64,000 nucleotides of DNA, from NCBI GenBank assembly GCA_022841745.1, contig JALHQW010000015.1:1-64000 (forward strand), written 5' to 3'. The DNA comes from Saprospiraceae bacterium. Its GTDB lineage: Bacteria; Bacteroidota; Bacteroidia; Chitinophagales; Saprospiraceae. Under the pieces are notes generated by a model, which ran no database searches, was not told the origin of the DNA, and saw only the letters and a program-made list of their open reading frames with translations. Below, one piece after another: positions 44,152-64,000 of this stretch; position 1 is the stretch's first letter, and each line of letters begins with the position of its first letter. The position numbers and the translations under genes were made by a program.

Positions 44152-44310
44152 GGAGTTGGATTAAACAAAGTAAAATTATCAAAGTAAAAGCAATAGCGTT
44201 GGCAAGCAATTTTAATGTTGATAGAAAAACTTAGGAAAAATGTGGTAACCAATCCCTCTAATCGGGATATATTACCGCCAGAAATTGCAAACAGACCAAA
44301 TTGTAACAAT

Positions 44311-46350
44311 ATGAAACCTTATGCTTGCCTTCTATTGCTTTTGATTTCCTCGTTTGCTTTTTGCTTCGCAAATGATGGCGCAACAGCCGCCGCCCCTCCA
44401 AAAAAAGCCTTGCTTGTCGCTGTAGGCAATTACCCATTTGAAACAGGCTGGAAGAAAATCAGTTCCCTGAACGATATTGTATTGCTCCGCAAAGCACTTG
44501 CCAAGCAAGGCTTTTCTGACGCTGACATCCACGAGCTAACGGACGAGGCGGCGACAAAGCAAGGCATACTGGATGCCATTCGGCAATTCCTCATCGAAAC
44601 TGCGCAGCCCGGCGGCGTGGCTTTCTTTCACTTCAGCGGCCACGGCCAGCAGGTTGCTGACGACAACGGCGACGAACTCGACGGCTACGACGAGGCCCTT
44701 GTGCCCATCAACTCGCCCCTCGTTTTCAACCCCGGCGTTTACGAAGGCGAGAACTTGATCCGGGACGAGGAACTTGGCGATTTGCTCGACGAAGTGCGCC
44801 GCAAGCTCGGCCCTACAGGCCACCTAACCGTTGTGCTCGACGCTTGCCACTCCGGCACGGGTACCAGGGGCAGCGGCATTGCAAGGGGCAGCACCGAGAA
44901 AATGGCCAGCCCTTCCTTCATAGCTGGGAACGGCAAATCTGGAAAAGAAAAAGGGAACCTGGACGAAGGCGCCAAGGACGAACGCAACCTCGCCCCCATG
45001 GTCTCTTTTTTCGGTGCAGCACAGCACCAACTCAATTTTGAAACCAAGGACGAAGAAGATAGGGGCGTAGGTTCCTTGAGCTATGCGCTTTGCAAAAAGC
45101 TGTCGGCAGCAACGAAAAGCATGACCTACCGGGGGCTTTTCGAGCAAGTTAAAACGGAGATGTCCATCGTTGCGCCCACGCAAAACCCGCAAGTGGAAGG
45201 GCTGCTCGACCAGGAACTGATGGGTGGACAGTTGCTCGGTGCCCCAGAATTCCTAAGGGTGTTGAAATGGAACGACCCCGGCTCAGTCACACTGGAAGGT
45301 GGGTGGCTGCAAGGCATTTATGAAGGTACGGTGGTGGGGCTTTTCCCGCCCGAAACCCGCAGCATTGCAGGGAAAACACCCATTGCCAAAGGCAAAGTCA
45401 GCTACGCAGATGCGACCACTTGTAAAGTGATTTTGGAATCGGAGTTGGAAGAGCAGGGAACGGCAAAATCGGCCTGGGTTTTCATTCTGGAACAAAGCTT
45501 TGGCGATTTGAGCATTAGTTTCAGAAACGCATTGCCCGAAGGGCATCCTGTTTTGCCGATTTTGCGGAGCAGGCTCGAAAAAACGACCGTGGTGCAGGAA
45601 GCCGCCACCGCTGCCGACCTCGAACTGACCTTCAGCGACGATGCGAGCCGGGGCGGGGCTGTGCAATTACTTACAAACAGTGGCATGGTATGCACTACCT
45701 TTCAGGAAAACCTCCGGCCCGAAATATTGGCCGACCGAATCCTGCAGCAAATGATGAGCGTGGCACAGGTTCGCTTCCTCAAGTCCTTGGAAATGGAGAG
45801 CAGCCTTTTGCCCTTGACTTTTGAAATCATTCCCATAAAATACGACCCCCAAACCAAGCAATACCTCGGCGATTTGCCCAAGGAGGAGCGCATGGACGAG
45901 AATGGGAACTTTAGGTTAAAGGTGGGAGATGGTTTCCGGGTCGAGGTAACGAACCACGGCTTTCGGCCCGCCTACTTCACCCTGCTGGACATTCAGCCGG
46001 ACAACGTGATGAACGTGTTGATGCCGAGCCAATGGAATCCAAGGGAGACCGCCGCCGAATTCGTGGTGGATGCTGGTAGCACCTTGGCGCTTCCCGCCAA
46101 ATACTATAAAAAAATCGAGCCGCCGATGGGAACGGAAGTGTTCAAGCTCATCGCCACCGACCAACCCATTGACCTGCGCACTGTGACGAAAAGCCGAGGG
46201 CAGACCCGCTCTGCTTCCCAAAATCCATTTGAAAAACTGCTGGCCGACTCGTTTTTCAGCGATGGCACTTCGAGCCGGGGCGGAGGAAGCCTTTCCATGT
46301 CGGCGACGGAGGTGCATGTGGAGACGTTCACTTTCGTAATTGAGGAGTGA
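44311..46350 (+). CDS. Exported orthocaspase-like protease with DUF4384-like tail
   Basis: From the ATG at 44311 the protein has 679 residues. It has a signal peptide (MKPYACLLLLLISSFAFCFA), a caspase p20-type domain (about 31-290) with KALLVAVGNY, FHFSGHGQQ (catalytic His111), the DDNGDELDGYDEAL acidic pocket typical of metacaspases/orthocaspases, and VVLDACHSGTGTRG (catalytic Cys179). The C-terminal third (about 525-680: GDGFRVEVTNHGFRPAYFTLLDIQPDNVMNVLMPSQ) resembles DUF4384 domains. Orthocaspases cut after Arg or Lys; the acidic S1-type residues here fit. It is the first of the array, and its stop overlaps a word repeat. Export to the periplasm is inferred from the signal peptide. Confidence 0.88.
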   Translation: MKPYACLLLLLISSFAFCFANDGATAAAPPKKALLVAVGNYPFETGWKKISSLNDIVLLRKALAKQGFSDADIHELTDEAATKQGILDAIRQFLIETAQPGGVAFFHFSGHGQQVADDNGDELDGYDEALVPINSPLVFNPGVYEGENLIRDEELGDLLDEVRRKLGPTGHLTVVLDACHSGTGTRGSGIARGSTEKMASPSFIAGNGKSGKEKGNLDEGAKDERNLAPMVSFFGAAQHQLNFETKDEEDRGVGSLSYALCKKLSAATKSMTYRGLFEQVKTEMSIVAPTQNPQVEGLLDQELMGGQLLGAPEFLRVLKWNDPGSVTLEGGWLQGIYEGTVVGLFPPETRSIAGKTPIAKGKVSYADATTCKVILESELEEQGTAKSAWVFILEQSFGDLSISFRNALPEGHPVLPILRSRLEKTTVVQEAATAADLELTFSDDASRGGAVQLLTNSGMVCTTFQENLRPEILADRILQQMMSVAQVRFLKSLEMESSLLPLTFEIIPIKYDPQTKQYLGDLPKEERMDENGNFRLKVGDGFRVEVTNHGFRPAYFTLLDIQPDNVMNVLMPSQWNPRETAAEFVVDAGSTLALPAKYYKKIEPPMGTEVFKLIATDQPIDLRTVTKSRGQTRSASQNPFEKLLADSFFSDGTSSRGGGSLSMSATEVHVETFTFVIEE

Positions 46351-46465: not shown

Positions 46466-48025
46466 ATGAAAAACTTTGTTCCATATTTCGCAATTTTCGG
46501 TTTTTGGGCCTTGGCAATACATGGCGCCGCCCAACGAAACGAGGTATTCTACAACCTTTTCAACGACAGTATCACTTACAAACGGGACGGCAAACCTGTT
46601 AAAGGCCTACGGCTGCGCAAAGGAGATGAAGTTAGGATTCATTTGACGGAATTCAACCCCTTTACCAGCGATGTACAATTGGACATTGAGGAAATAAACG
46701 AACCCACTGCGCTGGAACTCTCCGGCATGGCAGGACTGGGTGGGCTGATGCCTGACATGCCAGGTTTACCTGGACTGGAAAGCATATTGGGAGGAAAAGG
46801 TTTTGGATTGGGAGATGGCGGCATACCTGTACTCGATATTCCAGTATTGACTTTTGGTGGCGACACGGTTTCCATTTCCAAGCTCTTGGGCGTTTCAAGA
46901 GGAGGAGCGGACGTCAGCCAAGCAAATTCGATGATGGCAGAAATCACTTCGCTGCTGGCCGACATCAACGGGCTATACAATGAGGTGAAAGCCATTGAAA
47001 AATCGGCAATGGTGAGTAAAATGGCTGCCATGAACGTGCAATTGTTGCGGCAGCAACCAAACCTCCGGCCCTCATTGGTTCAACAGTTATGCAGGGAATA
47101 TTATGATATTGCTTTTGCGAAGTCGCCCGGTGAGGCACTCAGCCTAAACGACCTGCTGGCTTGGCAGTCCATGCCAAACAGGTTTGGGTTGTTGCATCAA
47201 AAGCTGAAGGGAAAACAAGGCGAACTCATCTCTAAAATTGGTGTATTGGAAGGCATCACAAAATCCATCTCCAGCATTCCGATGGACAATGCCAGTAGTC
47301 AGAAGTATTTTCGGGAACTCATTGATTTTCAATCAAAATCAAAAGGAGTGCGTGACCAATTAAAGGACTACACCGCCCACCCGATGAGTCTTGGCGATTT
47401 GCCAACGGTACAGGAAATGGCCGAACTGCAACTGCAATTGGCCGAAGTGATTTCCAATGATTTCACTTACCACACCACCCTACAGCCCTTGGCCGATCAG
47501 GTAGTGCTGCACATGAAATTGCAGCGCAAGGGCACCGATGGCGAAGAAATGGAGGTCGTGAAAGAACGCAACCTTCGCTTGGAGATTCGGGGAGGGCTGA
47601 AGGTTAGCGCCAGTGCTGGTATTGGGTTTGGGCAGTTCTTTGAGCCTGCGCAGGCCTATTCCGTGAACAATGGGAGCATTGTCGGGGATGACGATGGCTT
47701 TTTCACCCCATCGCTGGTCAGCTTCCTGCACTTCCACGGCTATCGGGGACAGAAGGCGACCTTGGGCGGCAGCTTCGGGGCAGGCTTTCCGATGCTCACC
47801 AACGGGGATGGGCAAAGCGTGGAGTTTTACCTTGGCCCAAGCCTGATTTTGGGTGCTTCGCAAAAACTGGTCATTTCCGCAGGGCTAAAGGGCGGTCGGG
47901 TGCAGCGGCTGGCCAAGGGCTACCAAATTGGCGACCTCTTTGATGTCAATTTCGGGGATATACCCACGGCAGGGAAATATGAGTTGGGATTGTTCTTGGG
48001 GGCGAGTTTTCATTTGGGGAATTGA
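46466..48025 (+). CDS. Exported protein of unknown function, possible barrel C-terminus
   Basis: From the ATG at 46466 the product is 519 residues, with a signal peptide (NFVPYFAIFGFWALAIHGAAQ). The first 100 residues include a strand-rich domain (NDSITYKRDGKPVKGLRLRKGDEVRIHLTEFNPF), a glycine/proline/methionine stretch (MPDMPGLPGLESILGGKGFGLGDGG), then a helical region about 140-370 and a C-terminal set of beta-strands (SASAGIGFGQFFEPAQAY, GYRGQKATLGGSFGAGFPML, VEFYLGPSLILGASQKLVISAGLKGG, KYELGLFLGASFHL) resembling an outer-membrane barrel. It lies 115 nt after the orthocaspase, in the same direction, and may form a functional pair with it as anchor or pore. No family is recognised. Confidence 0.7.
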   Translation: MKNFVPYFAIFGFWALAIHGAAQRNEVFYNLFNDSITYKRDGKPVKGLRLRKGDEVRIHLTEFNPFTSDVQLDIEEINEPTALELSGMAGLGGLMPDMPGLPGLESILGGKGFGLGDGGIPVLDIPVLTFGGDTVSISKLLGVSRGGADVSQANSMMAEITSLLADINGLYNEVKAIEKSAMVSKMAAMNVQLLRQQPNLRPSLVQQLCREYYDIAFAKSPGEALSLNDLLAWQSMPNRFGLLHQKLKGKQGELISKIGVLEGITKSISSIPMDNASSQKYFRELIDFQSKSKGVRDQLKDYTAHPMSLGDLPTVQEMAELQLQLAEVISNDFTYHTTLQPLADQVVLHMKLQRKGTDGEEMEVVKERNLRLEIRGGLKVSASAGIGFGQFFEPAQAYSVNNGSIVGDDDGFFTPSLVSFLHFHGYRGQKATLGGSFGAGFPMLTNGDGQSVEFYLGPSLILGASQKLVISAGLKGGRVQRLAKGYQIGDLFDVNFGDIPTAGKYELGLFLGASFHLGN

Positions 48026-48870: not shown

Positions 48871-51800
48871 ATGAAAATAATTTCCTTCTCCATCTTGTTG
48901 TTAATTCCAGTTCTATTAAATGCACAACCAACTGACAGTCTTGTAGTTGCAAAATTAGTAGACAGCCTGGTGTTGGCCTCCCGCAACCTGAGCAATGCTC
49001 GTGAATTCGACAAGGCAATGGACTTGAACATCAGAGCGGAGAACCTGGCTTTGGAGATGCTGGGCAGGGTATCGGTGAGTTATGGCAAAGCAAGTTTTAA
49101 TCATGGACGGATATATAATTTAAAAGCTGACTACCAAAATGCGGAAAAATGGTACATCATTAGCCGGGAAATACAGGAGCTGACCATTGGCAAAATGCAC
49201 CCCGATTACGCATCAACCTTGAACAACTTGGGTGTATTATACCTTAAAATTGGCTTAAAAGAAAAGGTAGAGCCTTTCTACTTAGAGGCCATGAGCATAA
49301 GGGAAAAAATATTCGGAGTTGAACATCCTGATTTTATTTCCAGCATAAATAACCTCGCTATTTATTATAAAGATATAGGCAAACCTGAACAAGCAGAACC
49401 ACTTTATTTAAAAGCCATGTCCCTGCGGGAAAAGGTGCTTGGAGTGGAGCATCCTGACTATGCGACAAGCCTTGCCAACCTAGCTGTACTGTACCTAGAA
49501 ACTGGCCGCTACGAATTGGCTGAACCAAAGCTGAAGCAGGCAACTTCAATCTGGAAAAGGGCATTGGGCGAAAAGCATCCGTTTTATGTTTCGGGCCTGA
49601 ACAACCTGGCCGTTCTGTACATGGAAACTGGCCGCTACGAACTAGCCGAACCAATTTACCTCGAATCAAAAGGCATTTATGAGAAAGCAGAAGCCAAGGG
49701 TGACCCCAATTATGCCGAATGTCTGAACAACTTCGCCAACCTCCACTGGAAGCTGGGCAATTACAGCAAAGTAGAGCCTAATTACAAAGCTGCCTTGGCC
49801 AATATTGAGGTCGGTTTAGGCAAAGAGCATCCGGATTTTTTGAGATACCTCAACAATTTAGCAATTTATTATACTGCTATTGGGGATTACGAAAAGGCCG
49901 AATCGGTTTATTTGGAAGTCATCAATATCCGGGAAAAATCATTGGGGCGAGAGCACCTTGATATTGCTTCAAGCCTTGGCAATTTGGCGATTTTATACGA
50001 CAATAACAAACAATCCGACAAAGCCTTGCCCTTGGCACTTGAAGCCAAGAATATACTAGAAAAAAATGGGGACTTGTCCAGTGCCATTTACACCATGCAA
50101 TTGGTTAATTTAGCTTTATTTTACCTTAAATCGGGCGAATTAAAAAAAGCAGAATCACTTGCAGTGAAAGCCGCTCAAATTTATGAAACCACGGTAGGCA
50201 AGCTGCACCCTGATTATGCAAACTGTTTGCATAAATTGGCCAAAATAAAACGTTCGCTTGGACAACCGGGCAGTGCTGAGAAATTATTTGATGAAGCACT
50301 TGCCATTTATGCAAAATCATTGGGCAAGGCCACAGCTGACTATACCGAATGCCTGTATGATTTGGTAAGCCTACACCAGTCCACTGGCCAATATGAAAAA
50401 GCATGGCAATTAGGTGTGGAATTATCCAATTTGAGCAAAACCGTCCTATTGCGTGGCGTGTATTTCATGCCTGAACTTGAGCTGAGCAAATTCCAGGGCT
50501 TATTTTCAAAAAACGAGTTACAGTTGTTGTCCTTAGTGCCAACCGATGAAAGTAGTGCTGCAGGAATTGTTGGTGCTTGCTACGACAATAGCCTGTTTAA
50601 CAAAGGATTCTTGTTGCAGGCAGTTAGTCAGGTCAGGCGACTGGCACTGGCAGACACTTCCCTAGCAGCGAATACTGACCTGCTGAAGTCTTACCAGCGC
50701 CGCCTCGCCGCTGAGTATGCAAAGCCCGCTTCGGAGCGGCAAGGTCTTAAAGATTTGGAAACGATGGCCAATGACCTCGAAAAAAGCCTAACCCGGCAAG
50801 TGGCAAACCAGGGGTTAAGTATGCAACAAGTGACCTGGCAGCAAGTGCAGTCAAAGCTTAAACTTGGCGAGGTCGCCATTGAGTTTGTCAATTATCAAAT
50901 CTCAAATAAAAGCCAGCCCGACAGTACGATGTATGCAGCCCTGTTGCTCAAGCCCGGCATGGCTCAGCCTGCATTTCTGCCACTCATTTCAGCGAAATCC
51001 TTGGACAGCATAATGGCATCAAATGGCCAACGCAAGGCCGACTACGTGAACAGCCTCTATGCTGTGGCCGAGCGAGGAGCCAAGCCAATCGGCAAGCCAG
51101 AAAAGACACTTTTCGAGATGCTCTGGCAGCCATTGGAAGCCATGCTAAACACATCGGGTGCGGCAACCAGTAGGGGCGGGCGCACCACTGTTTATTTTTC
51201 GCCAGTGGGCCTGCTCCACCGACTGAACCTCGCTGCGATACCCGTAAACGAGGATGAGATACTCGGCGACCGCTACCGGTTAATAGAACTAGGCAGCACC
51301 CGGCAATTGGCCTTGCCAAACATTGCCCCCTTTGCAAACAAAGATGCCTTGTTCTTTGGCGGAATTCAGTACGACGTGGACGGCCTTGCACTCAATATTG
51401 AGCGTGATCCCGATGAAGCATATGATGCCAAACGTGGGCAAGTAAGCACGGAAGACATTGACCCAAGCCTGCGGGGCAATACCTGGAGCTACCTGAAATG
51501 GACGGTGCAGGAGGTGGATGGAATTTCCGCCATTTTGACTGATAACGACTATAGCAGTAGTGTATTAAAAGGAAATGACGCAACCGAGACCGCTTTCAAA
51601 CAGCTTGGTGTCGTCGGTACCTCGCCGAAAGTGCTGCACGTCTCCACGCACGGTTATTTCTTCCCAGACCCAGCCCCCCAGCCCTCTATAGGGGAAGCGG
51701 GCGCAGGGCGTGCATTAGGGGCTGAGCATGAAACGGTGTTCAAAACATCGGAGCTGCCAATGATACGCTCAGGGCTGATAATGGCAGGCGCCAACTATGC

Positions 51801-52173
51801 ATGGGAAAATGGTCGGCCCATGTCCCCCGGCATGGACGACGGCATACTTACTGCCTACGAAATCAGCCAGATGAACCTCTCGAACACGGAGCTGGTGGTG
51901 TTGTCCGCCTGTGAGACTGGCCTTGGCGACATCCAAGGGAACGAGGGCGTCTATGGTCTTCAACGTGCCTTCAAGATTGCTGGGGCGAAGTACCTCGTGA
52001 TGTCGCTATGGCAAGTGCCCGACTTCCAGACGCAGGAGTTGATGACCACGTTTTACACTAAATGGCTAAAAAATAAAATGCCCTTGCCCGATGCCTTCCA
52101 TGCGGCGCAAAAGGACATGAAAGATAAATACCAGAACCCGTTTTTCTGGGCCGGCTTCGTGCTGGTTGAGTGA
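48871..52173 (+). CDS. Exported TPR-CHAT protein (caspase-HetF-type peptidase)
   Basis: The 1100-residue protein has a signal peptide (MKIISFSILLLIPVLLNAQ), about ten TPRs of the nephrocystin-3 type (about 35-560; repeated YLEAMSIREKIFGVEHPDF, LNNLAVLYMETGRYELAEP), a linker (about 560-790), and a CHAT peptidase domain (about 790-1100). The catalytic dyad is His927 in HVSTHGYFF and Cys1014 in VVLSACETGLGD, followed by EGVYGLQRAFKIAGAKYLVMSLWQV and the terminal PFFWAGFVLVE. TPR-CHAT proteins are cysteine proteases related to separases and to the partner protease of gRAMP type III-E CRISPR effectors. Here a signal peptide and no CRISPR genes argue for an envelope function. It is probably cotranscribed with the downstream small secreted gene (start 38 nt after the stop). 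Confidence 0.9.
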   Translation: MKIISFSILLLIPVLLNAQPTDSLVVAKLVDSLVLASRNLSNAREFDKAMDLNIRAENLALEMLGRVSVSYGKASFNHGRIYNLKADYQNAEKWYIISREIQELTIGKMHPDYASTLNNLGVLYLKIGLKEKVEPFYLEAMSIREKIFGVEHPDFISSINNLAIYYKDIGKPEQAEPLYLKAMSLREKVLGVEHPDYATSLANLAVLYLETGRYELAEPKLKQATSIWKRALGEKHPFYVSGLNNLAVLYMETGRYELAEPIYLESKGIYEKAEAKGDPNYAECLNNFANLHWKLGNYSKVEPNYKAALANIEVGLGKEHPDFLRYLNNLAIYYTAIGDYEKAESVYLEVINIREKSLGREHLDIASSLGNLAILYDNNKQSDKALPLALEAKNILEKNGDLSSAIYTMQLVNLALFYLKSGELKKAESLAVKAAQIYETTVGKLHPDYANCLHKLAKIKRSLGQPGSAEKLFDEALAIYAKSLGKATADYTECLYDLVSLHQSTGQYEKAWQLGVELSNLSKTVLLRGVYFMPELELSKFQGLFSKNELQLLSLVPTDESSAAGIVGACYDNSLFNKGFLLQAVSQVRRLALADTSLAANTDLLKSYQRRLAAEYAKPASERQGLKDLETMANDLEKSLTRQVANQGLSMQQVTWQQVQSKLKLGEVAIEFVNYQISNKSQPDSTMYAALLLKPGMAQPAFLPLISAKSLDSIMASNGQRKADYVNSLYAVAERGAKPIGKPEKTLFEMLWQPLEAMLNTSGAATSRGGRTTVYFSPVGLLHRLNLAAIPVNEDEILGDRYRLIELGSTRQLALPNIAPFANKDALFFGGIQYDVDGLALNIERDPDEAYDAKRGQVSTEDIDPSLRGNTWSYLKWTVQEVDGISAILTDNDYSSSVLKGNDATETAFKQLGVVGTSPKVLHVSTHGYFFPDPAPQPSIGEAGAGRALGAEHETVFKTSELPMIRSGLIMAGANYAWENGRPMSPGMDDGILTAYEISQMNLSNTELVVLSACETGLGDIQGNEGVYGLQRAFKIAGAKYLVMSLWQVPDFQTQELMTTFYTKWLKNKMPLPDAFHAAQKDMKDKYQNPFFWAGFVLVE

Positions 52174-52210
52174 GTTAATTCTTATTTTTTTCATCTATAA
52201 AACATTCAAC

Positions 52211-52819
52211 ATGAAAGTAATCTTTTTTAAATCAGTTGTTCTGTTAGCCATGTTCATGTGCTGTTTTGCCCACGTGGGCAATAGCCAGACCAAACAAACA
52301 GCAGAGAAAAAAGCATCAACCTCGCTGGCTCAAACCAACTACTGCGACCAAGTTATTACAGCGACGAACAAGAAACTCAAAGAGGAAGCAAATGCAACCT
52401 GTGCCTCCCAACACACTTGCGTGGAATGCACAGATCGAACAACCATGATGAAAATCTATGCGACCATGGTGGTGCAGCCCGACAAACCAAATTGCAAGAT
52501 GGTTTCAGAAATTGCCATTAGCGATGATGCCGTAAGCCGAGGGACAGAGACCAGAACCGGGTTCCGTGCCGAACTGCTCCAAAGCCCCTGCTTTGCTGGC
52601 GGCACCAACCTCGAAGTCTTTTTGCCGGGTTATGGCGAAGCAAGCCGGGAGTTCAGCTATCTTTGGGAGATAGATGGCGGCAAAGGCGGCCACCTGCCAA
52701 CCATTCAATGCGCCTGCGGCAAGGAAGCGAAGGTCAGGGTTACTCAATTGGCCACCGGGGAATCCATCACGTTGGTTGCCAAACTCGGTTCTACTTGCGG
52801 CGATTCGACCAGGAAATAG
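52211..52819 (+). CDS. Small secreted Cys-rich protein with LWEIDGG domain
   Basis: From the ATG at 52211 the product has 202 residues, with a signal peptide (FKSVVLLAMFMCCFAHVGNSQ). The middle (about 40-90) holds four Cys (NATCASQHTCVECTD, NYCDQ). The C-terminal half (about 125-200) has SPCFAGGTNLEVFLP, FSYLWEIDGGKGGHLPTIQCACGKEAKVRV and ITLVAKLGSTCGDS. This C-terminal part is clearly related to the next gene product (52994-53377), and its YLWEIDGG, Cys, VRV pattern recalls an SprB/PKD-like beta-sandwich. It follows the TPR-CHAT gene by 38 nt and precedes a strong terminator. Function unknown; a substrate or ligand of the envelope proteases is a possibility only. Confidence 0.75.
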   Translation: MKVIFFKSVVLLAMFMCCFAHVGNSQTKQTAEKKASTSLAQTNYCDQVITATNKKLKEEANATCASQHTCVECTDRTTMMKIYATMVVQPDKPNCKMVSEIAISDDAVSRGTETRTGFRAELLQSPCFAGGTNLEVFLPGYGEASREFSYLWEIDGGKGGHLPTIQCACGKEAKVRVTQLATGESITLVAKLGSTCGDSTRK

Positions 52820-52993: not shown

Positions 52994-53377
52994 ATGAAAA
53001 AGTCAATGAAATCCAGCCTCGCAATGCTTATCGGCCTGTTATCAATGGTTGTTTTATTCACCAATAATAGCAATGCCCAAAGCGCCAAAAATCAGCCATT
53101 CGCTGAAAAAGCCTTTAAAAAAATAAACAAGGGTTTTTACTTCGATATTAAAGCGGTAACCTGTTTTGCCGGAGGCACTTCGCTGTATGTTGCCATTGAG
53201 AAATCGAACAACTACGCCTTCTTGTGGGAGATAGACGGCCAGCACGGAGGCCACCAAATGAACCAGGAGTGCATTTATGGAGAATATGCAAAACTGCGGG
53301 TCATGCGGTTGTCGGATGGGTTGCAGATAACCCGTACGGTTAGGCTAACTTATTACGGCGATAGTGACAACAATTAA
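52994..53377 (+). CDS. Small secreted protein, paralogue of the preceding gene's C-terminal half
   Basis: The 127-residue product has a signal peptide (SSLAMLIGLLSMVVLFTNNSNAQ) and a single domain (about 50-127): VTCFAGGTSLYVAIE, YAFLWEIDGQHGGHQMNQECIYGEYAKLRVMRLSDGLQITRTVRLT. Shared landmarks with the 52211-52819 product are CFAGGT, the aromatic-LWEIDG-x-x-GGH segment, a Cys, then AK-[LV]-RV. So the domain can stand alone. It sits between the TPR-CHAT terminator and the pseudo-caspase gene and has its own downstream terminator. Function unknown; an envelope or extracellular location is inferred. Confidence 0.72.
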   Translation: MKKSMKSSLAMLIGLLSMVVLFTNNSNAQSAKNQPFAEKAFKKINKGFYFDIKAVTCFAGGTSLYVAIEKSNNYAFLWEIDGQHGGHQMNQECIYGEYAKLRVMRLSDGLQITRTVRLTYYGDSDNN

Positions 53378-53881: not shown

Positions 53882-55786
53882 ATGAAAATCCTTTTTCTGG
53901 TTGCTTTCACAACTGTTAGCTTCCCACTCATCTCACAAACAGAGAAAGGTGAATCCCCCCTGAGCCCAACATACACAATCGCCAGTTCGAAATCAATCAG
54001 GGCCGTCGTCGTTGGCGTCTCCACCCAGCAGGACAGCCTGCTGACGCCCTTGCCGGACAACCAGCAAAATGCGGAAGTGTATGCCGCTTTTTTGCGCTCA
54101 AGGGGAGGCGGGCTGCTGCCTGCTGACCAACTGCAGTTGCTGACGGGCGAGCAGGCAACAATGGCCAGTTTCACCACTGCCATTGGTTGGCTGGAAGAGG
54201 AAAGCCAGCTTGGCGACCAAATCACGCTTTACTTTGCAGGAAACGCACGCCTGCTCAATTCCGATGACGGCCCAGCGCCCCATCTTTTTTTAGCTGATTC
54301 ACCGTTGGCCCTCGGCAGGACTGGCAGTATGCCTTTGGCGAGAATCTGTTATTTGATGCAGGAAATCGCATTGAAAAAAAGCCTGAAATATAGCCTTGTT
54401 TTTGACCTAAACATGGCTGCAATAACAGTTGATGAAGTTGAAATATGGTTGCAATGGCTCGAAGCCATTCAGAAATCATTTCCCTTTGCCTGGCTGGAAG
54501 AGACCCTGAAAAAGCCATGGGATTCCAAACAACGGTTGGCTGGTTTTTCGCCCATCCTTCTCGAAGGGCTGCTCGGTGAGGCGGACATCAACGGCAATGA
54601 ACTCATTTCCCCAAAGGAAGCGGGCAAGTATCTTCGTTTCAAGCATAAAAAAGCCCCTGGCGGCTATGCGATGCTTCTGGCTTTTTCTAATGAAAATGCC
54701 TTCTTTTCCAGTTTTGATGCTACTAAGCCGAGTAAAAATTATGCTGAAAATGGCACTGCCAGCCAGTTCCCAGCCTTGGTAAGCAAGGAACTGAGCCATT
54801 TGGAAGACTCCCTGCTCGCCGCAGCCGGTGATAAAACCCGTCAATGGTACCAGGATTTTATACTCACCATGAAGTTGGGCAAGCTGATGGAACCTGCGGG
54901 CCGCTGCACCTCCGACCTCTACGACAGCCTGCTCACACAGCTATCACTCCGCCCCCTGCACAGCCATTTGCGCCGACAGCTTGCCGCCGCTTTGCTGGAT
55001 GAAACGCAGCAAGTGCTCAACGACTACCTCCGAACAGATACCCGTGAACTGCAACGGCGTTGGAAATTCGGCGGCAACTACGCAGCTTATCCCAGGTATA
55101 TGGCAAGGTCGGTTGAACTGTTGGGCGATAAGCACTTCATGCACACCATCATCCAATGCAAACGCTCCTATTTCGAGGGGCTAACAGCGAGGCTGGATTT
55201 TCAAAAAAACCAGGACTCCCTGCTCCTTCAAACAGCTTTGGCTAACCAGCAGCTTGCCTTGCAATACGAGCCAGAAGCACCCTTTGTGCTCAATGAAATA
55301 GGCATTTTGCATTTTTTGACGAAATCCGATACCGCTAAATCCTATTACCTCAAAGCCATTCACCTTGCTCCACAATGGGGCATTCCATACCTTAATATCG
55401 CCTTGCTGCACCGTGAAAAGCAACAGTACGACAGCGCCCTGGTCTATGCACAATTGGCAGTTGACCTGACCCCCTGGAACCCTGTAGCCGTTGCCATTTT
55501 GGGAGGGATAAACGTGCGATTGAAGCATTACGCAGCCGCTGAATTTTGGCTTCGCAATGCAGCATCCTTAGACCCCCTGGAAGCCACCATTTACTATGAT
55601 CTGAGCTGTACCAAAGCCTTGCAAGACCAACCCATGGCTGCCCTACAATGGCTCGAACTGGCGTTCAAATATGGTTATAAAGACTACTCGAATCTAATGA
55701 AGGATGAAGATCTCATCACCCTTCAGCATACGGAACAGTTCGACGAATTAGTGAGAAAGTACTTCCCTGAACGAGACAAAGATTAA
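53882..55786 (+). CDS. Exported caspase-like protein lacking the catalytic dyad (pseudo-caspase), with TPR tail
   Basis: From the ATG at 53882 the product has 634 residues: a signal peptide ending PLISQ, then the same TEKG leader as the two active paralogues (QTEKGESPLSP), a caspase-like domain (about 40-270) with RAVVVGVS, FLRSRGGGLLPADQLQLLTGEQAT and LGDQITLYFAG, and a TPR region (about 440-634). Where the paralogues have YFSGHGD, this one has YFAGNAR (Asn121 replaces His), and where they have SDACRSG it has FDLNMAA (Asn177 replaces Cys). The C-terminus (DELVRKYFPERDKD) matches the paralogue ends. The frame is intact, which suggests a maintained non-catalytic role such as regulator, decoy or scaffold rather than decay. 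Confidence 0.85.
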   Translation: MKILFLVAFTTVSFPLISQTEKGESPLSPTYTIASSKSIRAVVVGVSTQQDSLLTPLPDNQQNAEVYAAFLRSRGGGLLPADQLQLLTGEQATMASFTTAIGWLEEESQLGDQITLYFAGNARLLNSDDGPAPHLFLADSPLALGRTGSMPLARICYLMQEIALKKSLKYSLVFDLNMAAITVDEVEIWLQWLEAIQKSFPFAWLEETLKKPWDSKQRLAGFSPILLEGLLGEADINGNELISPKEAGKYLRFKHKKAPGGYAMLLAFSNENAFFSSFDATKPSKNYAENGTASQFPALVSKELSHLEDSLLAAAGDKTRQWYQDFILTMKLGKLMEPAGRCTSDLYDSLLTQLSLRPLHSHLRRQLAAALLDETQQVLNDYLRTDTRELQRRWKFGGNYAAYPRYMARSVELLGDKHFMHTIIQCKRSYFEGLTARLDFQKNQDSLLLQTALANQQLALQYEPEAPFVLNEIGILHFLTKSDTAKSYYLKAIHLAPQWGIPYLNIALLHREKQQYDSALVYAQLAVDLTPWNPVAVAILGGINVRLKHYAAAEFWLRNAASLDPLEATIYYDLSCTKALQDQPMAALQWLELAFKYGYKDYSNLMKDEDLITLQHTEQFDELVRKYFPERDKD

Positions 55787-56490: not shown

Positions 56491-59070
56491 ATGAAAAGCA
56501 ATTTATTGGTTGTTGCGGCATTCATCTGTACGTCAGTTTTTGCCCAAACCGAAAAAGGCGCCACTTCTCTCTCACCCGCTCACACTCTCACCGGCTCACC
56601 TTCTGTAACAAGGTCCGTCGTAATCGGCATCTCCGACTACGCCGACGACCGCATCCCCGACCTGCGCTTCGCCCACGTAGACGCCCAGGCATTTGCCGAC
56701 TACCTGCGCTCTCCAGCGGGCGGCTCCCTGCCCAACGAACAGTTGCTGCTGCTGACGAACACCCAGGCCACCGCCGGGAAAATCATCGCCGCTCTCACCT
56801 GGCTCATCGAGGAATGCAAGTCCGGCGATCGGGCCATCATCTACTTCAGCGGGCACGGTGACGTGGAGCAGGTCACCAAATTCCAGCGGGGCTACCTCCT
56901 CGCTCACGACTCCCCCGGCACCACCTACATGGCGGGCGGCTCGCTGCCGGTCGGGTTCCTCTCGGACGTGATTACCACACTGTCGGAGGCTGACGTGGAG
57001 GTCGTCATGGTCTCCGATGCCTGCCGCAGCGGCAAGTTGGCGGGCAGCGCCAATGGCGGCACACAGGCGACTTCGGCGGCGCTGGCGCAACAGTTTTCCA
57101 AGGAAATCAAAATCCTCTCCTGCCAGCCGGAGGAGTTCTCGCTCGAAGGCGAGCAGTGGGGCGGCGGCAGGGGCTGCTTCAGCTTCCACCTCGTAGACGC
57201 CCTGACGGGCATGGCGGACGGCAACGCCGACGGCTCAGTGAACCTCCTCGAAGCGGGCCGCTACCTCGAAGACCGGGTGCCCACTGAGACAGCCCCGCAC
57301 TCCCAAATCCCGATGACCATCGGCAACCGCAGCACCAGTCTCGCCACCGTGCAGCCGGAAGCGCTGGCGGCATTGCGCCAGCGAAAAACCGGACAGGTCT
57401 CGACGCTCACGCCCATTGACGCCAAGGGCTTCGAGGACATGGTGCTGGCCAAGGCGGACTCGTCTGTGCAGCAGCTCTATGCTGCCTTCACCGCTGCACT
57501 GGGGCGGGGCGATCTGATGTCCCCGGCAGGCGCTTCTGCCAACGACTACTACCTGCGCCTACTACCTGAACCTGGCATCGAAAAGCTGAAAGGGCTGATG
57601 ACCCGCAACCTTGCCGCCGCCTTGCAGGACGAGGCGCAGGTGGTCATCAACCAACTGCTGCGCACCGACCCGCAAATCGTGGATGATGCTTTCTCGCCCG
57701 TTTCAAAATACGACCACCTGCCGGGCTACCTGCACCGGGCGGGGGAACTGCTGGGCGAGGGGCATTATATGTGGCGGTATATCAAGGCGAGGGAATATTA
57801 TTTTAAGGCGAAGGCTTGTCGGAAGGAGAATTATCCTGAACTGACGCCGGATAGTTTGTTGAATTTGGCACTGGCGAGACTGGATACTGCGCTGGTGTTT
57901 GATGAAGAGGCGGCGTATGCCTGGTTTGACAAAGGGTATCTTTTGTTTTGGGGAAGCCAAATCCCACAATCGGTTCAATATTTTGAAAAAGCTGAACATG
58001 CCTCCCCGTTTTGGTTTTTGCCTAAGTATTATTCAGCAAGGGCATTGGTTCATGGTGACATTGATTATGAGAATGGAATGAGCAAACTAAAAAATTTAGT
58101 CGCAGAGGATTCTTCCTTTTTACCGCTCTACCGTGATATAGGTGTGTCAGTAAAGGATGGCCAGATTTGGTTTGAGACTTATATCCGAAAAATGAACGAA
58201 TACTTATCTGCCAATCCTCAGCAAGTGCCTGCCACTTATTACAATTATCTCGGTAGCAGTCTGATGCAATTAAATAGGAATGAAGAAGCTGTACAAGCTT
58301 TATTGACAGGAGCAGACTTGTCCAACCATCAACATCCATTAATTTATGTCAACCTGGCAAGGGCTTACAGTGCTATGGGGCGTTATGAAGATGCAGAAGC
58401 TACTTACGAGAAAAGCGTGGAATTAAGTCCTCTTAACTTTACAATTTACTTCGAATTAGGGATACTTAAACGAGTATATTTGGATAGACCACCTCAAGAA
58501 GCCATAGATTGTTTCTCCAAAGTTGTACAAATACTTCCAAATCATTGGCCCGCATGGATTGAATTGACTGCTGTTTATTTGCAATCTGGACAATTGGATA
58601 GTGCAGAACAGGTTTCCCGACAGTTCATATTCGCAAATCCAAACATCCAAGCAGCTTATCTGCGATTAGGCCAAGTATTGCGGCTTCAAGGCAAAATGGA
58701 CGCCTCCCGGCAGCAGTTCGAAAAAGTATTGACGCTTGCAGATGAGGATGCCGTTTTCGATATGTACTACAAGCTGTTTGCATTGGCTGGCTTAGGGGTA
58801 AAAGACAGCTTTGACATTGCTACTAAAAACTTCAGAACAGCACTTGGCGACGATGCCGATTATTACTTCAGTCTCGCTATTGTTCACGTTTTTAACATGC
58901 AAAACGACCTTGCGCTTGAATTCCTGGAAAAAGCCTTTATAAATGGTTGGAAACCAGACCCCAATGATGACTCCAATTCTTTCAATCATTCAGAACTATA
59001 CATGCTCCGGCAAACGCCGGAGTTCAAAGCATTGGTAAAAAAATACTTCCCCGACCAAACCAAAAACTAA
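56491..59070 (+). CDS. Exported caspase-TPR protein 1
   Basis: The 859-residue protein has a signal peptide (VVAAFICTSVFAQ), then TEKGATSLSPAHTLTGSPSV, a caspase domain (about 40-285) with VVIGISDY, IIYFSGHGDVE (catalytic His122), VMVSDACRSGKL (Cys178) and ILSCQPEEFSLEGEQWGGGRGCFS, a helical linker (about 300-430), and TPRs (about 450-830). It ends ALVKKYFPDQTKN, an ending shared with the paralogues. By eye the coding DNA is GC-rich up to about 57,770 and AT-rich after, exactly at the start of the TPR part. It precedes caspase-TPR protein 2 by 11 nt and is surely cotranscribed with it. Predicted to act as a Cys protease in the envelope, with the TPR part binding a partner. Confidence 0.88.
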   Translation: MKSNLLVVAAFICTSVFAQTEKGATSLSPAHTLTGSPSVTRSVVIGISDYADDRIPDLRFAHVDAQAFADYLRSPAGGSLPNEQLLLLTNTQATAGKIIAALTWLIEECKSGDRAIIYFSGHGDVEQVTKFQRGYLLAHDSPGTTYMAGGSLPVGFLSDVITTLSEADVEVVMVSDACRSGKLAGSANGGTQATSAALAQQFSKEIKILSCQPEEFSLEGEQWGGGRGCFSFHLVDALTGMADGNADGSVNLLEAGRYLEDRVPTETAPHSQIPMTIGNRSTSLATVQPEALAALRQRKTGQVSTLTPIDAKGFEDMVLAKADSSVQQLYAAFTAALGRGDLMSPAGASANDYYLRLLPEPGIEKLKGLMTRNLAAALQDEAQVVINQLLRTDPQIVDDAFSPVSKYDHLPGYLHRAGELLGEGHYMWRYIKAREYYFKAKACRKENYPELTPDSLLNLALARLDTALVFDEEAAYAWFDKGYLLFWGSQIPQSVQYFEKAEHASPFWFLPKYYSARALVHGDIDYENGMSKLKNLVAEDSSFLPLYRDIGVSVKDGQIWFETYIRKMNEYLSANPQQVPATYYNYLGSSLMQLNRNEEAVQALLTGADLSNHQHPLIYVNLARAYSAMGRYEDAEATYEKSVELSPLNFTIYFELGILKRVYLDRPPQEAIDCFSKVVQILPNHWPAWIELTAVYLQSGQLDSAEQVSRQFIFANPNIQAAYLRLGQVLRLQGKMDASRQQFEKVLTLADEDAVFDMYYKLFALAGLGVKDSFDIATKNFRTALGDDADYYFSLAIVHVFNMQNDLALEFLEKAFINGWKPDPNDDSNSFNHSELYMLRQTPEFKALVKKYFPDQTKN

Positions 59071-59081
59071 AACCCATAAAA

Positions 59082-61682
59082 ATGAAATACCACCTCACCA
59101 TCACCTTGATTGCCACCAGTATCGCCCTTTTCGCCCAAACCGAAAAAGGCGCCACCCCCATCTCACCTTCTCACACGCTCACCGGCTCACCTTCTGTGAC
59201 GAGGGCCGTCGTCATCGGCATCTCCGACTACCGGGAGCCGCTCATCCCCGATCTGCGCTTCGCCGACCGGGACGCACGGGCCTTCGCCGATTGGCTGCGC
59301 TCCGCCGAGGGGCTTGCCCTGCCCGATTCGAGCATCCATTTGCTCATCAACCAGCAGGCCACCACCGCCCAGATGATTGTCAACCTCGATTGGCTCATCG
59401 AGGCCAGCAAGCCGGGCGACCGGGCGTTCATCTATTTCAGCGGTCACGGTGACGTGGAGCGGGTCACGAAGTTCAACCTCGGCTACCTGCTCAGTTACGA
59501 CTCGCCGCCCGCCGTGTACGGTGCCGGGGCATTTTCGCTGCAATATTTGCAGGCCATCCTGAGCACCCTCTCCGAGAACGACGTGCAGGTTTTCATCATC
59601 ACCGACGCCTGCCGGGCGGGCAAGCTGGCGGGCAACAGCGTGAACGGTACACTGGTCACCGCCACCCAACTGTCGCAGCAGTTTGCCAACGAAATCAAGG
59701 TCCTGAGCTGCCAGCCCGACGAGTTCTCGCTGGAAGGCGAGCAGTGGGGCGGCGGGCGTGGCTGCTTCAGCTATCACCTCGAAGACGCCCTCTACGGCTT
59801 TGCCGACGACAACCACGACGCCTCGGTGGACCTGCTCGAACTGCGCCGCTACCTCGAAGACCATGTGAGCACCGAAGCCGCCCCGCAGAGCCAGGTGCCG
59901 ATGATTTCTGGGCCCGTGAAGACCAGGATTGTTGAAATACGGGAACCCGAGGTGGCTGCCCGAAAAGCCGCCAAAGGAAACCAACCAGTGGCTTTCAAAG
60001 CCATCGAAAACAAGGGCATGGAAAGCCGTTTGCTGGAAAAAATGGACACGAGCGGGCAACGTTTGTACGCCCAATTCCTCACAGCGATTGACTCCGGCCA
60101 CCTGATGTCACCCCTCGGACGGAGCGCCAACGACTACTTCAAGCTCTTGATAGAAAAACCTGAAATGGCGGCGCTGCAAGGCTCAATGAAACGCAAGCTG
60201 GCGGCGGCGCTGATGGACGAGGGGCAAGCCATCCTCAACAAAGTGCTGCAGACCGACCCACAGGTGCTGGACAATATCTGGGCGAACCGGGTGAACTACG
60301 ACCACCTGCCCTCCTATTTCGAGCGGGCGGCGGAGATTTTGGGCGAGAAACATTACGTCTGGCGGGACTTAAAGGCGAAGGAGTTTTACTTTCGGGCGAT
60401 GACGGTTCGGAAAGAGAATTATCCGGACAGTACACGTGATTGGAGAATTGGAGAAAAAAGGAGGTTGCTGGAAAACTCGCTGGAATGGGACAGCACATCG
60501 GCAGTGGCTCATTATGAATTGGGCTATACATTCCCAAATAGCTCACAAAAAAAATTTGAACATTTTAATAAGGCTGCTGAATTTTCACCGGATTGGGTGT
60601 TGATACATTATACAATGGGTAGTAATTCAACCAACCGACTTGATGCTATTACTCATTATAAAAAAGCTATCGAACTCGATTCTAATTTTCTAAAATCGTA
60701 CGTATGGCTTGCCAATACTTATGAACTGCTTAGGGAAAAAGATTTGGCTAACTTTTGGAGGAAATTGTATGTCCAGAAATTTTTCGAAAGAATCGCCAAA
60801 GATTCTACTTCTTTGAGGGCTTTTGAATGTTCCGACATTGGAAACGCACTTTGGGCGCTTCGTGACTACGAAAAAGCAAAAGATTTTTTGTTGAAGGGCG
60901 AAAAGATATCAAACGGAAAAATGGAAAGCATTTATGCCCACTTGATAGTTGTTTATACAGACTTATTAGATTTTGAAAGTTCAATAAACGCATGTAAATA
61001 TGGGATGGATATCTCGAATAATTCTAATTGGGATGAAGAAGGCATGGGTGATATCTATTTCTATTTCATGTACGACACTACAAGTGCCATGTCTGCATGG
61101 GAAAAAGGAGGTGATCGTGCAGACAACGACCGAATTATTGCATTGCATTCAATGGGGAATTTTGCCAAAGCCTATTCACTGGCCAAAAAAAATATTCAAC
61201 CTGGACAGTATTATGGAATAAAGGCTTTCTACATCGCAGAATCTGCCCTTCAAATGAATTTGGCCGACACAGCTCGGCACTATTTTAATTCAATCATAAA
61301 AAAGGCAAGACTGGAATACAAGCGGCACGAATTCTCATTACCAGATTATATTTTTGTTGCTATTGCCCTCGACCGCCTCGGCAAAAAGGAGGAATTTCAA
61401 GTAGTTCTTGACACTGCTCTTAGCCGGCTGGCTGGCGACCATTGGTTGTACTTCCACCTCGCCCGCATCTATGCACAGACCAATCAAGAAAAAGCCGCCA
61501 TCGCCTCCCTCCAAAAAGCCATTGAACTCGGCTGGCAACCCAACCCCCTGATTTGGATAGAGGGCACCCTCTGCGACCCCCTCCTCAATCCCATCCGGGA
61601 AACCGAAGCCTACAAAGCGCTGGTGCGGGAGCATTTTCCGAAGTATTACGACATCGCCACGAGGGTGCCGGGGAAGCATTGA
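59082..61682 (+). CDS. Exported caspase-TPR protein 2
   Basis: The 866-residue paralogue of the preceding gene has a signal peptide (TLIATSIALFAQ), TEKGATPISPSHTLTGSPSV, and a caspase domain (about 40-285) with FIYFSGHGDVE (His122), IITDACRAGKL (Cys177) and the motif LSCQPDEFSLEGEQWGGGRGCFSYH. A linker (RKENYPDSTRD near 445) and divergent TPRs (about 455-850) follow, ending ALVREHFPKYYD. The protease halves of the two paralogues are much more alike than the TPR halves, and the DNA composition drops in GC at the same aligned point (about 60,380), rising again near 61,360. The stop abuts a perfect 27-bp hairpin. Both catalytic residues are present. Confidence 0.88.
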   Translation: MKYHLTITLIATSIALFAQTEKGATPISPSHTLTGSPSVTRAVVIGISDYREPLIPDLRFADRDARAFADWLRSAEGLALPDSSIHLLINQQATTAQMIVNLDWLIEASKPGDRAFIYFSGHGDVERVTKFNLGYLLSYDSPPAVYGAGAFSLQYLQAILSTLSENDVQVFIITDACRAGKLAGNSVNGTLVTATQLSQQFANEIKVLSCQPDEFSLEGEQWGGGRGCFSYHLEDALYGFADDNHDASVDLLELRRYLEDHVSTEAAPQSQVPMISGPVKTRIVEIREPEVAARKAAKGNQPVAFKAIENKGMESRLLEKMDTSGQRLYAQFLTAIDSGHLMSPLGRSANDYFKLLIEKPEMAALQGSMKRKLAAALMDEGQAILNKVLQTDPQVLDNIWANRVNYDHLPSYFERAAEILGEKHYVWRDLKAKEFYFRAMTVRKENYPDSTRDWRIGEKRRLLENSLEWDSTSAVAHYELGYTFPNSSQKKFEHFNKAAEFSPDWVLIHYTMGSNSTNRLDAITHYKKAIELDSNFLKSYVWLANTYELLREKDLANFWRKLYVQKFFERIAKDSTSLRAFECSDIGNALWALRDYEKAKDFLLKGEKISNGKMESIYAHLIVVYTDLLDFESSINACKYGMDISNNSNWDEEGMGDIYFYFMYDTTSAMSAWEKGGDRADNDRIIALHSMGNFAKAYSLAKKNIQPGQYYGIKAFYIAESALQMNLADTARHYFNSIIKKARLEYKRHEFSLPDYIFVAIALDRLGKKEEFQVVLDTALSRLAGDHWLYFHLARIYAQTNQEKAAIASLQKAIELGWQPNPLIWIEGTLCDPLLNPIRETEAYKALVREHFPKYYDIATRVPGKH

Positions 61683-62529: not shown

Positions 62530-62823
62530 ATGAAAGATTTCTTTTTCCTCCTCGCCCTGCTCACGGCCCTTTGTCATCGCGCAGGGACCCTCTCCGCCCA
62601 GACCCTCGACCTCGGCGGCACCTCCACCTACGCCGTCGGCATCGGCATCTCCGACTACCAGGCCGCCGCCATCCCTGACCTGCGCTTTGTGGATAGGGAC
62701 GTCGAGGCCTTCGCCAATTTCCGCTACCACCTATTTCCGATAACTTTTACTAACTTGCGACATCTATATCAGACTTGTTTTGCCAATGAAAACAATTTCA
62801 TTTTGCCTTGCCCTGAATTGTAG
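62530..62823 (+). pseudogene. Truncated caspase gene (N-terminal remnant)
   Basis: The frame encodes 97 residues. It starts with a signal peptide (MKDFFFLLALLTALCHRAGTLSAQ) and the beginning of a caspase domain (YAVGIGISDYQAAAIPDLRFVDRDVEAFANF), then turns at about 62,722 into sequence unlike any caspase and stops at 62,823. The catalytic His and Cys regions are absent. It overlaps the first 38 bp of the following intact caspase gene (start 62786) in another frame. The break falls at TTCGCCAATTTCC, which has a close counterpart (TTCGCCAACTTCC) in the next gene, so a deletion between paralogous copies is the likely cause. A translated secreted fragment is possible but not indicated. Confidence 0.75.
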
Positions 62824-64000
62824 CCTTTCTCTCTTCGCACAATCCTTTGACAAAGGCACTGCTACCCGTGCCGTCGTCGTCGGCATCTCCGACTACCAAG
62901 ATGCCAGCATTCCCGACCTGCGCTTCGCCGACAAAGACGCCGTAGCATTCGCCAACTTCCTCCGTTCACCTGCTGGCGGCTCGCTTGATGGCGACCACTT
63001 GAAACTGCTCACCAACCAACAGGCGACTGCAGCGCAGTTTGCTGCCGCACTTTCATGGTTGATTGATGAAACACAGGAGGACGACAAGGTCATCATCTAC
63101 TTCTCTGGCCACGGCGATGTGGAAAAAAAGACACTAAACCAGCCAGGCTACTTGCTTTGTTGGGATACGCCATCGAGGGTGTACATGGCAGGTGGGGCAT
63201 TCAATCTAAGGGACATTCAGGAGGTCATTTCCACCCTGTCCATTCAAAATAAAGCGAGGGTAATCGTCTTTGCCGATGCCTGCCATTCCGGCAAATTATC
63301 GGGAAGCGCAATCGGTGGGCCGCAGGCCACGGCTAACAACCTCTCCAAGCAGTACGCCAATGAAGTCAAAATTCTTTCCTGCCAGCCGAATGAGTTCAGC
63401 GTCGAGGGTGAGCAGTGGGGCGGTGGCAGGGGTGCCTTCAGCTACCACTTGTTGAACGGGATGTACGGCATGGCAGATGCCAATGAAGATCAAAGGGTCA
63501 ATATATTCGAAATAGGCAGGTACCTGGAAGACCATGTGAGTGCTGAAGTTGCTCCCATTAAGCAGTTGCCGCTCATTGTCGGCGACCGCTCAGAAGAAAT
63601 TGCACAGGTCGTTCCTTCGGTGCTGGAGGGCATTCGGAAAAACCGGTGGCCTCAAGGCCCCGTGATTTCCAAAACCGAAACGCATGGCTTGGAAGAACAG
63701 GTGCTGGAAGACTTGGACGAAGATACCCGGTCGCATTATTTTTCATTCCAAAAAGCCCTTTTGGAGAAGCGTTTACTGGAGCCAACCAACAAATGCGCAG
63801 AGTCATATTTTGGGCAATTGATGAAGGAGCCAAGACTTGCAGCGCTGCACGCTTCCATCCGGCGGAACTATGCGGCGGCGTTGCAGGACGAGGCGCAGCA
63901 GGCGGTGAATGCAATCATGGAGGTGAACGTGCAGGCGCTAACACGGTCAGTTCAGGAGCAGGTTTTGCTTTATCAGCGGACACCATCGCTGCTCGCTCGT
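62786..64000 (+). CDS. Exported caspase-like protease, 3' end outside the window
   Basis: The frame is open from the ATG at 62786 to the window end (405 codons, no stop seen). Signal peptide MKTISFCLALNCSLSLFAQ is followed directly by the caspase domain (about 27-270) without the TEKG leader of the neighbours. Motifs are RAVVVGISDY, VIIYFSGHGDVE (catalytic His109), VIVFADACHSGKL (Cys166), ILSCQPNEFSVEGEQWGGGRGAFSYH and a D-x-N-x-D segment (ADANEDQRVN) as in the paralogues. A helical linker (about 290-405) matches the caspase-TPR proteins, so a TPR tail beyond the window is expected. It lies downstream of the truncated caspase remnant. Confidence 0.87.
   Translation, partial: MKTISFCLALNCSLSLFAQSFDKGTATRAVVVGISDYQDASIPDLRFADKDAVAFANFLRSPAGGSLDGDHLKLLTNQQATAAQFAAALSWLIDETQEDDKVIIYFSGHGDVEKKTLNQPGYLLCWDTPSRVYMAGGAFNLRDIQEVISTLSIQNKARVIVFADACHSGKLSGSAIGGPQATANNLSKQYANEVKILSCQPNEFSVEGEQWGGGRGAFSYHLLNGMYGMADANEDQRVNIFEIGRYLEDHVSAEVAPIKQLPLIVGDRSEEIAQVVPSVLEGIRKNRWPQGPVISKTETHGLEEQVLEDLDEDTRSHYFSFQKALLEKRLLEPTNKCAESYFGQLMKEPRLAALHASIRRNYAAALQDEAQQAVNAIMEVNVQALTRSVQEQVLLYQRTPSLLAR

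Follow-up and report, generated by a model that had tools for sequence, protein, structure and literature searches.

A caspase-like gene without the catalytic dyad, lying among paralogues that keep it, raises the question of what its product may still do. Such a gene, P0001, is found in the stretch of DNA analysed here (64,000 nucleotides of a contig of a Saprospiraceae bacterium, called the window below). A preliminary description had aligned the product by eye with those of the genes starting at 56491 and 59082. It proposed that the replacement of both dyad residues by Asn, with the frame intact, reflects selection for a non-catalytic role such as inhibitor, decoy or activator of the active paralogues. 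The parts of the gene are as follows.

53882..55786, + strand: pseudo-caspase gene P0001, 634 amino acids plus stop, unbroken reading frame
53882..53938, + strand: probable Sec signal peptide, about residues 1-19, recognised by eye (MK, a hydrophobic stretch, then QTEKG)
53993..54706, + strand: caspase-like domain, residues 38-275 (AF2 model of residues 36-274: pLDDT 88.9, pTM 0.89)
54242..54244, + strand: Asn121, codon AAC, in the catalytic His column (hhalign)
54410..54412, + strand: Asn177, codon AAC, in the catalytic Cys column (hhalign; gapped in two MAFFT alignments)
54584..54619, + strand: EF-hand-like loop DINGNELISPKE, 12 residues (235-246), found by pattern, between predicted helices 223-233 and 244-253
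54779..55201, + strand: helical middle domain, residues 300-440 (bounds by eye), with the lowest dN/dS and common to the active paralogues
55202..55783, + strand: TPR region, residues 441-634 (Pfam TPR_8, E 4.8e-7; NCBIfam TPR_END_plus above its cut-off)

The dyad columns and the predicted fold

P0001 is 30% identical to the 56491 product (P0002) and 27% to the 59082 product (P0003), in each case over about 500 residues and the C-terminal end; P0002 and P0003 are 40% identical to each other. An hhalign comparison of 13 pseudo-caspase rows with 12 active rows (probability 100%, E 2e-111, 623 columns) placed N121 opposite H122 and N177 opposite C178 of the active paralogues. YFAGNAR was paired with YFSGHGD and FDLNMAA with SDACRSG by hhalign and by two MAFFT alignments. 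The coordinates and the two Asn residues at the His and Cys columns were thus borne out, and the frame of 634 codons, described as intact, is indeed open. The Cys column was gapped for P0001 in two further MAFFT alignments, so that the equivalence of Asn177 with the catalytic Cys depends on the alignment; a D[AS]C motif was not found in P0001 whichever alignment was used. With N121 and N177, P0001 is without the His-Cys dyad needed for an active C14 (caspase) peptidase. The TEKG leader and the C-terminal end, also described as kept, are common to P0001, P0002 and P0003 in MAFFT alignments, though TEKG itself is not conserved among the orthologues.

Pfam Peptidase_C14 (PF00656) gave no match to P0001 alone at E ≤ 0.1, its gathering score not being reached, and the NCBIfam caspase model NF047832 matched weakly (E 2.9e-5), far under its cut-off. 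Peptidase_C14 matched five of the ten aligned members of the pseudo-caspase lineage at E ≤ 0.01. The Pfam scan of P0001 returned only TPR models and two weak others; it contained no death-effector domain and, at E ≤ 0.1, no CHAT domain, the feature of TPR-CHAT (Craspase) proteins. PADLOC reported nothing for P0001, its 'caspase' model matching P0002, P0003 and the product of a further caspase gene, P0004.

The caspase fold of P0001 is argued for by a predicted model together with the hhalign match to dyad-bearing paralogues. When the full-length model (pLDDT 83.8) was submitted to Foldseek, only TPR-type proteins were found among the matches listed (best 50), and the caspase-like domain was therefore modelled alone. 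The best domain model reached a pLDDT of 88.9 against 73.5-77.2 in the other four models, from an alignment that includes active paralogues, which may steer the predicted fold. In VIA-align this model scored Z 17.1 to Arabidopsis metacaspase 4 (6w8s_C; 198 residues, rmsd 3.3), 15.4 to a Geobacter protein, 15.1 to MALT1 and 13.8 to caspase-7. P0001 is thus predicted to keep the caspase fold. The dyad residues of caspases come after the third and fourth core strands; in the full-length model, the long strand 113-127 contains Asn121, and Asn177 closes strand 169-177.

The loss extends beyond the two residues. Searched for anywhere in the first 400-450 residues, the GHG and DxC motifs were absent from all 14 rows of the pseudo-caspase lineage and present in 80 of 80 other family rows, the latter being those in the tree with 14 pseudo-caspase rows and partly hand-picked. 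Four further rows (L185, L186, L187 and L189) read ATHGD; these keep the dyad and would fail the GHG pattern. SCQP was likewise found in 0/14 against 63/80 rows, and EGEQWGGGRG in 0/14 against 44/80. The EF-hand-like loop pattern, by contrast, was found in 14/14 pseudo-caspase rows and 71/80 other rows. From its pattern, this loop may bind calcium.

The lineage across genomes and the selection on it

In the first set, drawn from eight genomes (seven of the genus, the eighth of a different one), 45 of 53 matched family members were aligned, the remaining eight being short fragments. His and Cys are both present in all 39 non-pseudo rows of this set, which include one gene twice and some rows cut by locus ends. 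Wider searches covered 14 genomes of the genus, 298 and 398 genomes of the family, named records and 298 genomes of the order. These added eight genomes with a pseudo-caspase (G118, G362, G312, G211, G095, G409, G392 and G382; G362 is the same as L127, judged from matching coordinates). A 78-row alignment held 66 rows with both dyad residues, 10 pseudo-caspases and 2 rows without the N-terminal part. In a 75-row alignment, where many rows are second copies of genes already counted, the numbers were 53, 19 and 3, respectively. Beyond the family, four genomes of the order also have caspase-TPR family members; in the one examined from each, the dyad is intact.

The lineage therefore comprises 14 genomes of six genera in one family, for which the nearest named records are Saprospiraceae. 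The frame is unbroken in 13 of the 14. The exception is G095, where a stop lies after the caspase-like part and before the middle part, leaving the former as a separate open frame. His is kept in one of the 14 genes and Cys in none. The His column reads N in five, Y in six and H, A and V in one each, while the exact residue at the Cys place in the distant members depends on the alignment. In the six members in the genus, the residue pairs at the His and Cys columns are N-N twice, N-Y three times and H-Q once. Asn at both columns is found in P0001 and one close relative only, so the double Asn that had been singled out is present but is not the conserved state, which is the lack of Cys. All six members in the genus share the loop G[N/H]ARL; outside this genus its ARL motif was not seen.

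A tree built without the caspase columns joined 11 pseudo-caspase rows in one group (SH-aLRT 96). With 14 rows, the best tree again showed one group, at a support of 63, 12 of them being held at 96; because of the value of 63, a single origin for all 14 genes is not established. A candidate second pseudo-caspase group, made up of other short caspase-TPR genes (G000 C15:67180 and kin), was rejected, as H and C are kept. The pseudo-caspase gene is mosaic among three of the orthologues. G001 (L055) is identical to G013 (L056) at 90% of bases in the caspase-like part and 61-62% in the TPR part, and to G008 (L051) at 64% and 79-84%, respectively, which points to recombination inside the pseudo-caspase gene among congeners.

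Selection was estimated from pairwise codon-model fits (GY type, F3x4). An omega of 1 was rejected in each of 16 pair-and-domain fits (2dlnL at least 29.5). The two unsaturated pairs gave an omega of 0.150 (dS 1.32) and 0.165 (dS 0.31) for the caspase-like part; two others, with dS of 2.7 and 3.5, gave 0.086 and 0.078. The middle domain gave 0.031-0.055 in four pairs and the TPR part 0.128-0.158 in three, the fourth being saturated; whole genes of active paralogues gave 0.076-0.200. These values are approximate, since the dS of the caspase-like part is high in all but two pairs and the gene is recombinant in at least one genome. Several whole-gene pairs were saturated, some with an absurd dS, and weight was placed on low-dS pairs and domain-wise values. 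Recombination also blurs the whole-gene values. The ratio of caspase-like to middle-domain dN was 1.14-4.11 in the pseudo-caspases (15 pairs) compared with 0.51-1.04 in active paralogues (8 pairs). In six genome pairs matched to one active orthologue group, the caspase-like dN was higher in the pseudo-caspase in 6/6 (in one by 0.194 to 0.191) and the middle-domain dN lower in 6/6. Two other active groups, with one pair each and at lower dS, gave middle-domain dN of 0.066 in the pseudo-caspase against 0.060, and 0.093 against 0.056. On our reading, constraint persists but has shifted away from the caspase-like part and towards the middle domain. Compared with active paralogues, the caspase-like part changes faster in relation to the middle domain, which suggests that its own role may be weak.

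These results bear directly on the proposal of a non-catalytic role. A dN/dS near 1, or a lack of orthologues with the frame intact, had been named as signs of a decaying gene; such orthologues do exist and dN/dS is far below 1, so that both tests speak against decay. Taken together, the dyad-less relatives in 14 genomes and the low dN/dS support selection for a function other than catalysis.

The neighbouring genes

The following genes surround P0001 in the window.

44215..46350, + strand: caspase with DUF4384, P0004 (Pfam; FSGHG and DACHSG intact), first gene of a recurrent set
46469..48025, + strand: partner gene, 518 amino acids, second gene of the set; C-terminal half barrel-like by eye only
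56491..59070, + strand: dyad-bearing caspase-TPR paralogue P0002 (Pfam; alignment)
59082..61682, + strand: dyad-bearing caspase-TPR paralogue P0003 (Pfam; alignment)
62780..64000, + strand: dyad-bearing caspase-TPR paralogue, continuing beyond the window end

The order caspase-DUF4384, partner of about 520 amino acids, pseudo-caspase recurs in 7 of the 14 genomes: six belong to the genus, and the seventh, G392, to a different one. It was not seen in the other seven, where the gene lies elsewhere or the contig ends. In the window, four other genes separate the partner from the pseudo-caspase. The first gene was recognised by eye in G013, where the contig end cuts it, and its DUF4384 match is under the cut-off in G004 and G009; both catalytic motifs are present in the six genomes where they can be read. 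The first two genes, identified from motifs and similarity, also form a pair in G382, G312 and G362, with the pseudo-caspase gene not adjacent; in G382 a dyad-bearing caspase-TPR gene comes after the pair. No Pfam family matched the partner at E ≤ 0.05.

Downstream of the pseudo-caspase, the start of a dyad-bearing caspase-TPR gene is no more than about 710 bases away in 7/14 genomes (G000, G008, G001, G004, G312, G211 and G409; in G211 and G409 it reaches the contig end), and every one of the 14 has a dyad-bearing caspase-TPR paralogue. The partner gene (E ≤ 1e-20) was found in 14/14 pseudo-caspase genomes, in 33 of 42 other caspase-TPR genomes (match at E ≤ 1e-90) and in 28 of 342 without caspase-TPR, from scans of 398 family genomes that scored at most three places per genome. 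Because it is also present in those 33 genomes, the partner marks the caspase-TPR system and not the pseudo-caspase form in particular. It occurs in 75 of the 398 genomes, often near caspase genes. Partner and caspase-TPR genes lie within 16 kb of each other in at least 29 genomes, out of 46 with both in the rows used; this is a lower bound, as the distances came from a hand-copied subset of rows. A candidate partner at L130:4752-6290 was dropped (16% identity, shared motifs missing).

Several side observations were made on these loci. A TPR-CHAT protein (CHAT E 8.8e-53), separate from P0001, is encoded at 48871-52173 between the partner and pseudo-caspase genes. It is followed by two small, apparently secreted products (52166-52819 and 52994-53377), alike by eye (CFAGGT, LWEIDG) and with no Pfam match at E ≤ 0.1. 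On the window contig and three others, the genome carries at least 12 dyad-bearing caspase-TPR paralogues, several in tandem, and 22 Peptidase_C14 matches; those outside the caspase-TPR family were assessed by motif search only, and several have no clear motif. Near caspase genes at L055 18492-19998 and L249 1115-2524, an ECF-type sigma factor (Pfam) is followed by what may be an anti-sigma factor (by eye), the L249 pair being recognised by eye only. At L054 1394-3376, G001 has a caspase-TPR paralogue with an in-frame TGA, while its pseudo-caspase gene is whole.

Possible roles and relation to known systems

The best explanation, with a probability of about 0.55, is that this dead caspase-fold protein under purifying selection works alongside active caspases in a secreted envelope module, as a scaffold or a regulatory subunit. 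P0001, apparently secreted judging by its N-terminus, would be exported and join the module, the EF-hand-like loop would bind calcium, the middle and TPR part would bind the partner or the active caspases, and P0001 would control their activity. Roles as inhibitor, activator or independent scaffold are all compatible with the present data. The earlier suggestion is partly supported: the selection results favour a non-catalytic role, and a partnership with active caspases is suggested by gene neighbourhood and co-occurrence. A more specific version is speculative and rather improbable as a whole: that a calcium-responsive, exported pseudo-caspase acts at the envelope as an on or off switch for the neighbouring caspase-DUF4384, an independently arisen bacterial counterpart of the regulatory pseudo-caspases of animals.

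The chief rival to the scaffold or regulatory-subunit reading, unlikely but to be taken seriously, is that the caspase-like domain is an inert structural remnant and that the function lies in the middle and TPR parts, forming a scaffold that does not depend on the active caspases. The shift in dN found in 6/6 pairs against one active group fits this, as does a partner gene that is not special to pseudo-caspase genomes, and excerpts of PMC6426788 hold that prokaryotic pseudo-orthocaspases most likely do not regulate true ones. However, purifying selection acts on the caspase-like part (omega 0.15-0.17), its predicted fold and its EF-hand-like loop are kept, and it is present in all 14 genomes, even as a separate open frame in G095; moreover, the middle domain is not slower in dN when compared with the two other active groups, whose pairs have lower dS.

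A substrate decoy, binding substrates of the active paralogues in a dominant-negative manner without cutting them, is improbable. A dead copy next to dyad-bearing ones would suit it, and excerpts of PMC7159879 raise dominant-negative action for inactive bacterial caspase domains. An unchanged substrate pocket is unlikely, however, because the motifs surrounding the active site (SCQP and EGEQWGGGRG as well as GHG and DxC) are missing from all 14 genes, and this part of the earlier suggestion has become less likely. An enzyme put to a new use, with other catalytic residues at the former active site, is very doubtful: the G[N/H]ARL loop would be a candidate within the genus, but no residue is common to the 14 genes at either dyad column. 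A decaying gene can practically be dismissed, since the split gene of G095 and the drifting dyad columns are outweighed by 13 unbroken frames, the rejection of omega = 1 and a whole pseudo-caspase in G001, where it is an active paralogue that carries the TGA.

Bacterial pseudo-orthocaspases are already in print (PMC6426788), and the present lineage is a variant of them: it has a homologous p20-type domain in which one or both dyad residues are replaced. As described in excerpts of that source, pseudo-orthocaspases have a C14-type domain with the same kind of replacement and are presumed inactive, and some carry C-terminal TPRs (Phe-Ser type, Rhizobiales). The Tyr-Asn type of cyanobacteria in the same excerpts gives a precedent for Asn at the Cys place. 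The survey in those pages assigns 90% of pseudo-orthocaspases to Alphaproteobacteria and Cyanobacteria and 10 of 1078 to Bacteroidetes, some of which may belong to the present lineage. In this lineage, unlike the types described there, the His place is N, Y, A, V or H and the residue at the Cys place varies; the EF-hand-like loop is found in 14/14, and the gene has a recurrent position after caspase-DUF4384 and the partner. 

In the conflict systems of PMC7159879, according to the portions consulted, about 70% of the caspase domains in one bacterial effector position are inactive, and dead domains likewise occur in systems that also hold live ones. Those domains are fused to vWA components of MoxR-vWA systems, whereas P0001 is apparently an exported protein, in which the caspase-like domain is joined to a helical middle domain and TPRs. 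According to excerpts of PMC6426788, cFLIP and MCA4 of Trypanosoma brucei are also caspase-fold pseudo-enzymes beside active relatives. P0001 differs in being bacterial and apparently secreted. Since the Pfam scan found no death-effector domain, the comparison with cFLIP drawn in the preliminary description holds as a functional analogy only. The dyad-bearing caspase-TPR paralogues of the same arrays have the same domain order, about 25-31% identity and mostly the same EF-hand-like loop; they differ in keeping GHG and DxC (80/80) and mostly in a longer TPR part.

Among titles and abstract beginnings in the open-access literature, no description of the lineage or its gene set was found, the papers listed for Saprospiraceae and caspase being unrelated by title; the passages of PMC8195603 that were searched hold nothing on exported pseudo-caspases. 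Haliscomenobacter hydrossis, noted in an excerpt of PMC3501461 for 28 metacaspases, belongs to the same order, Saprospirales.

For dead bacterial caspases, PMC6426788, in the parts consulted, leans to roles independent of active caspases. The dyad-bearing paralogues in 14/14 genomes and the recurrent order in half of them make the question of a regulator testable in a defined three-gene set, and an active site lost while the EF-hand-like loop is kept provides a test at the level of single residues.
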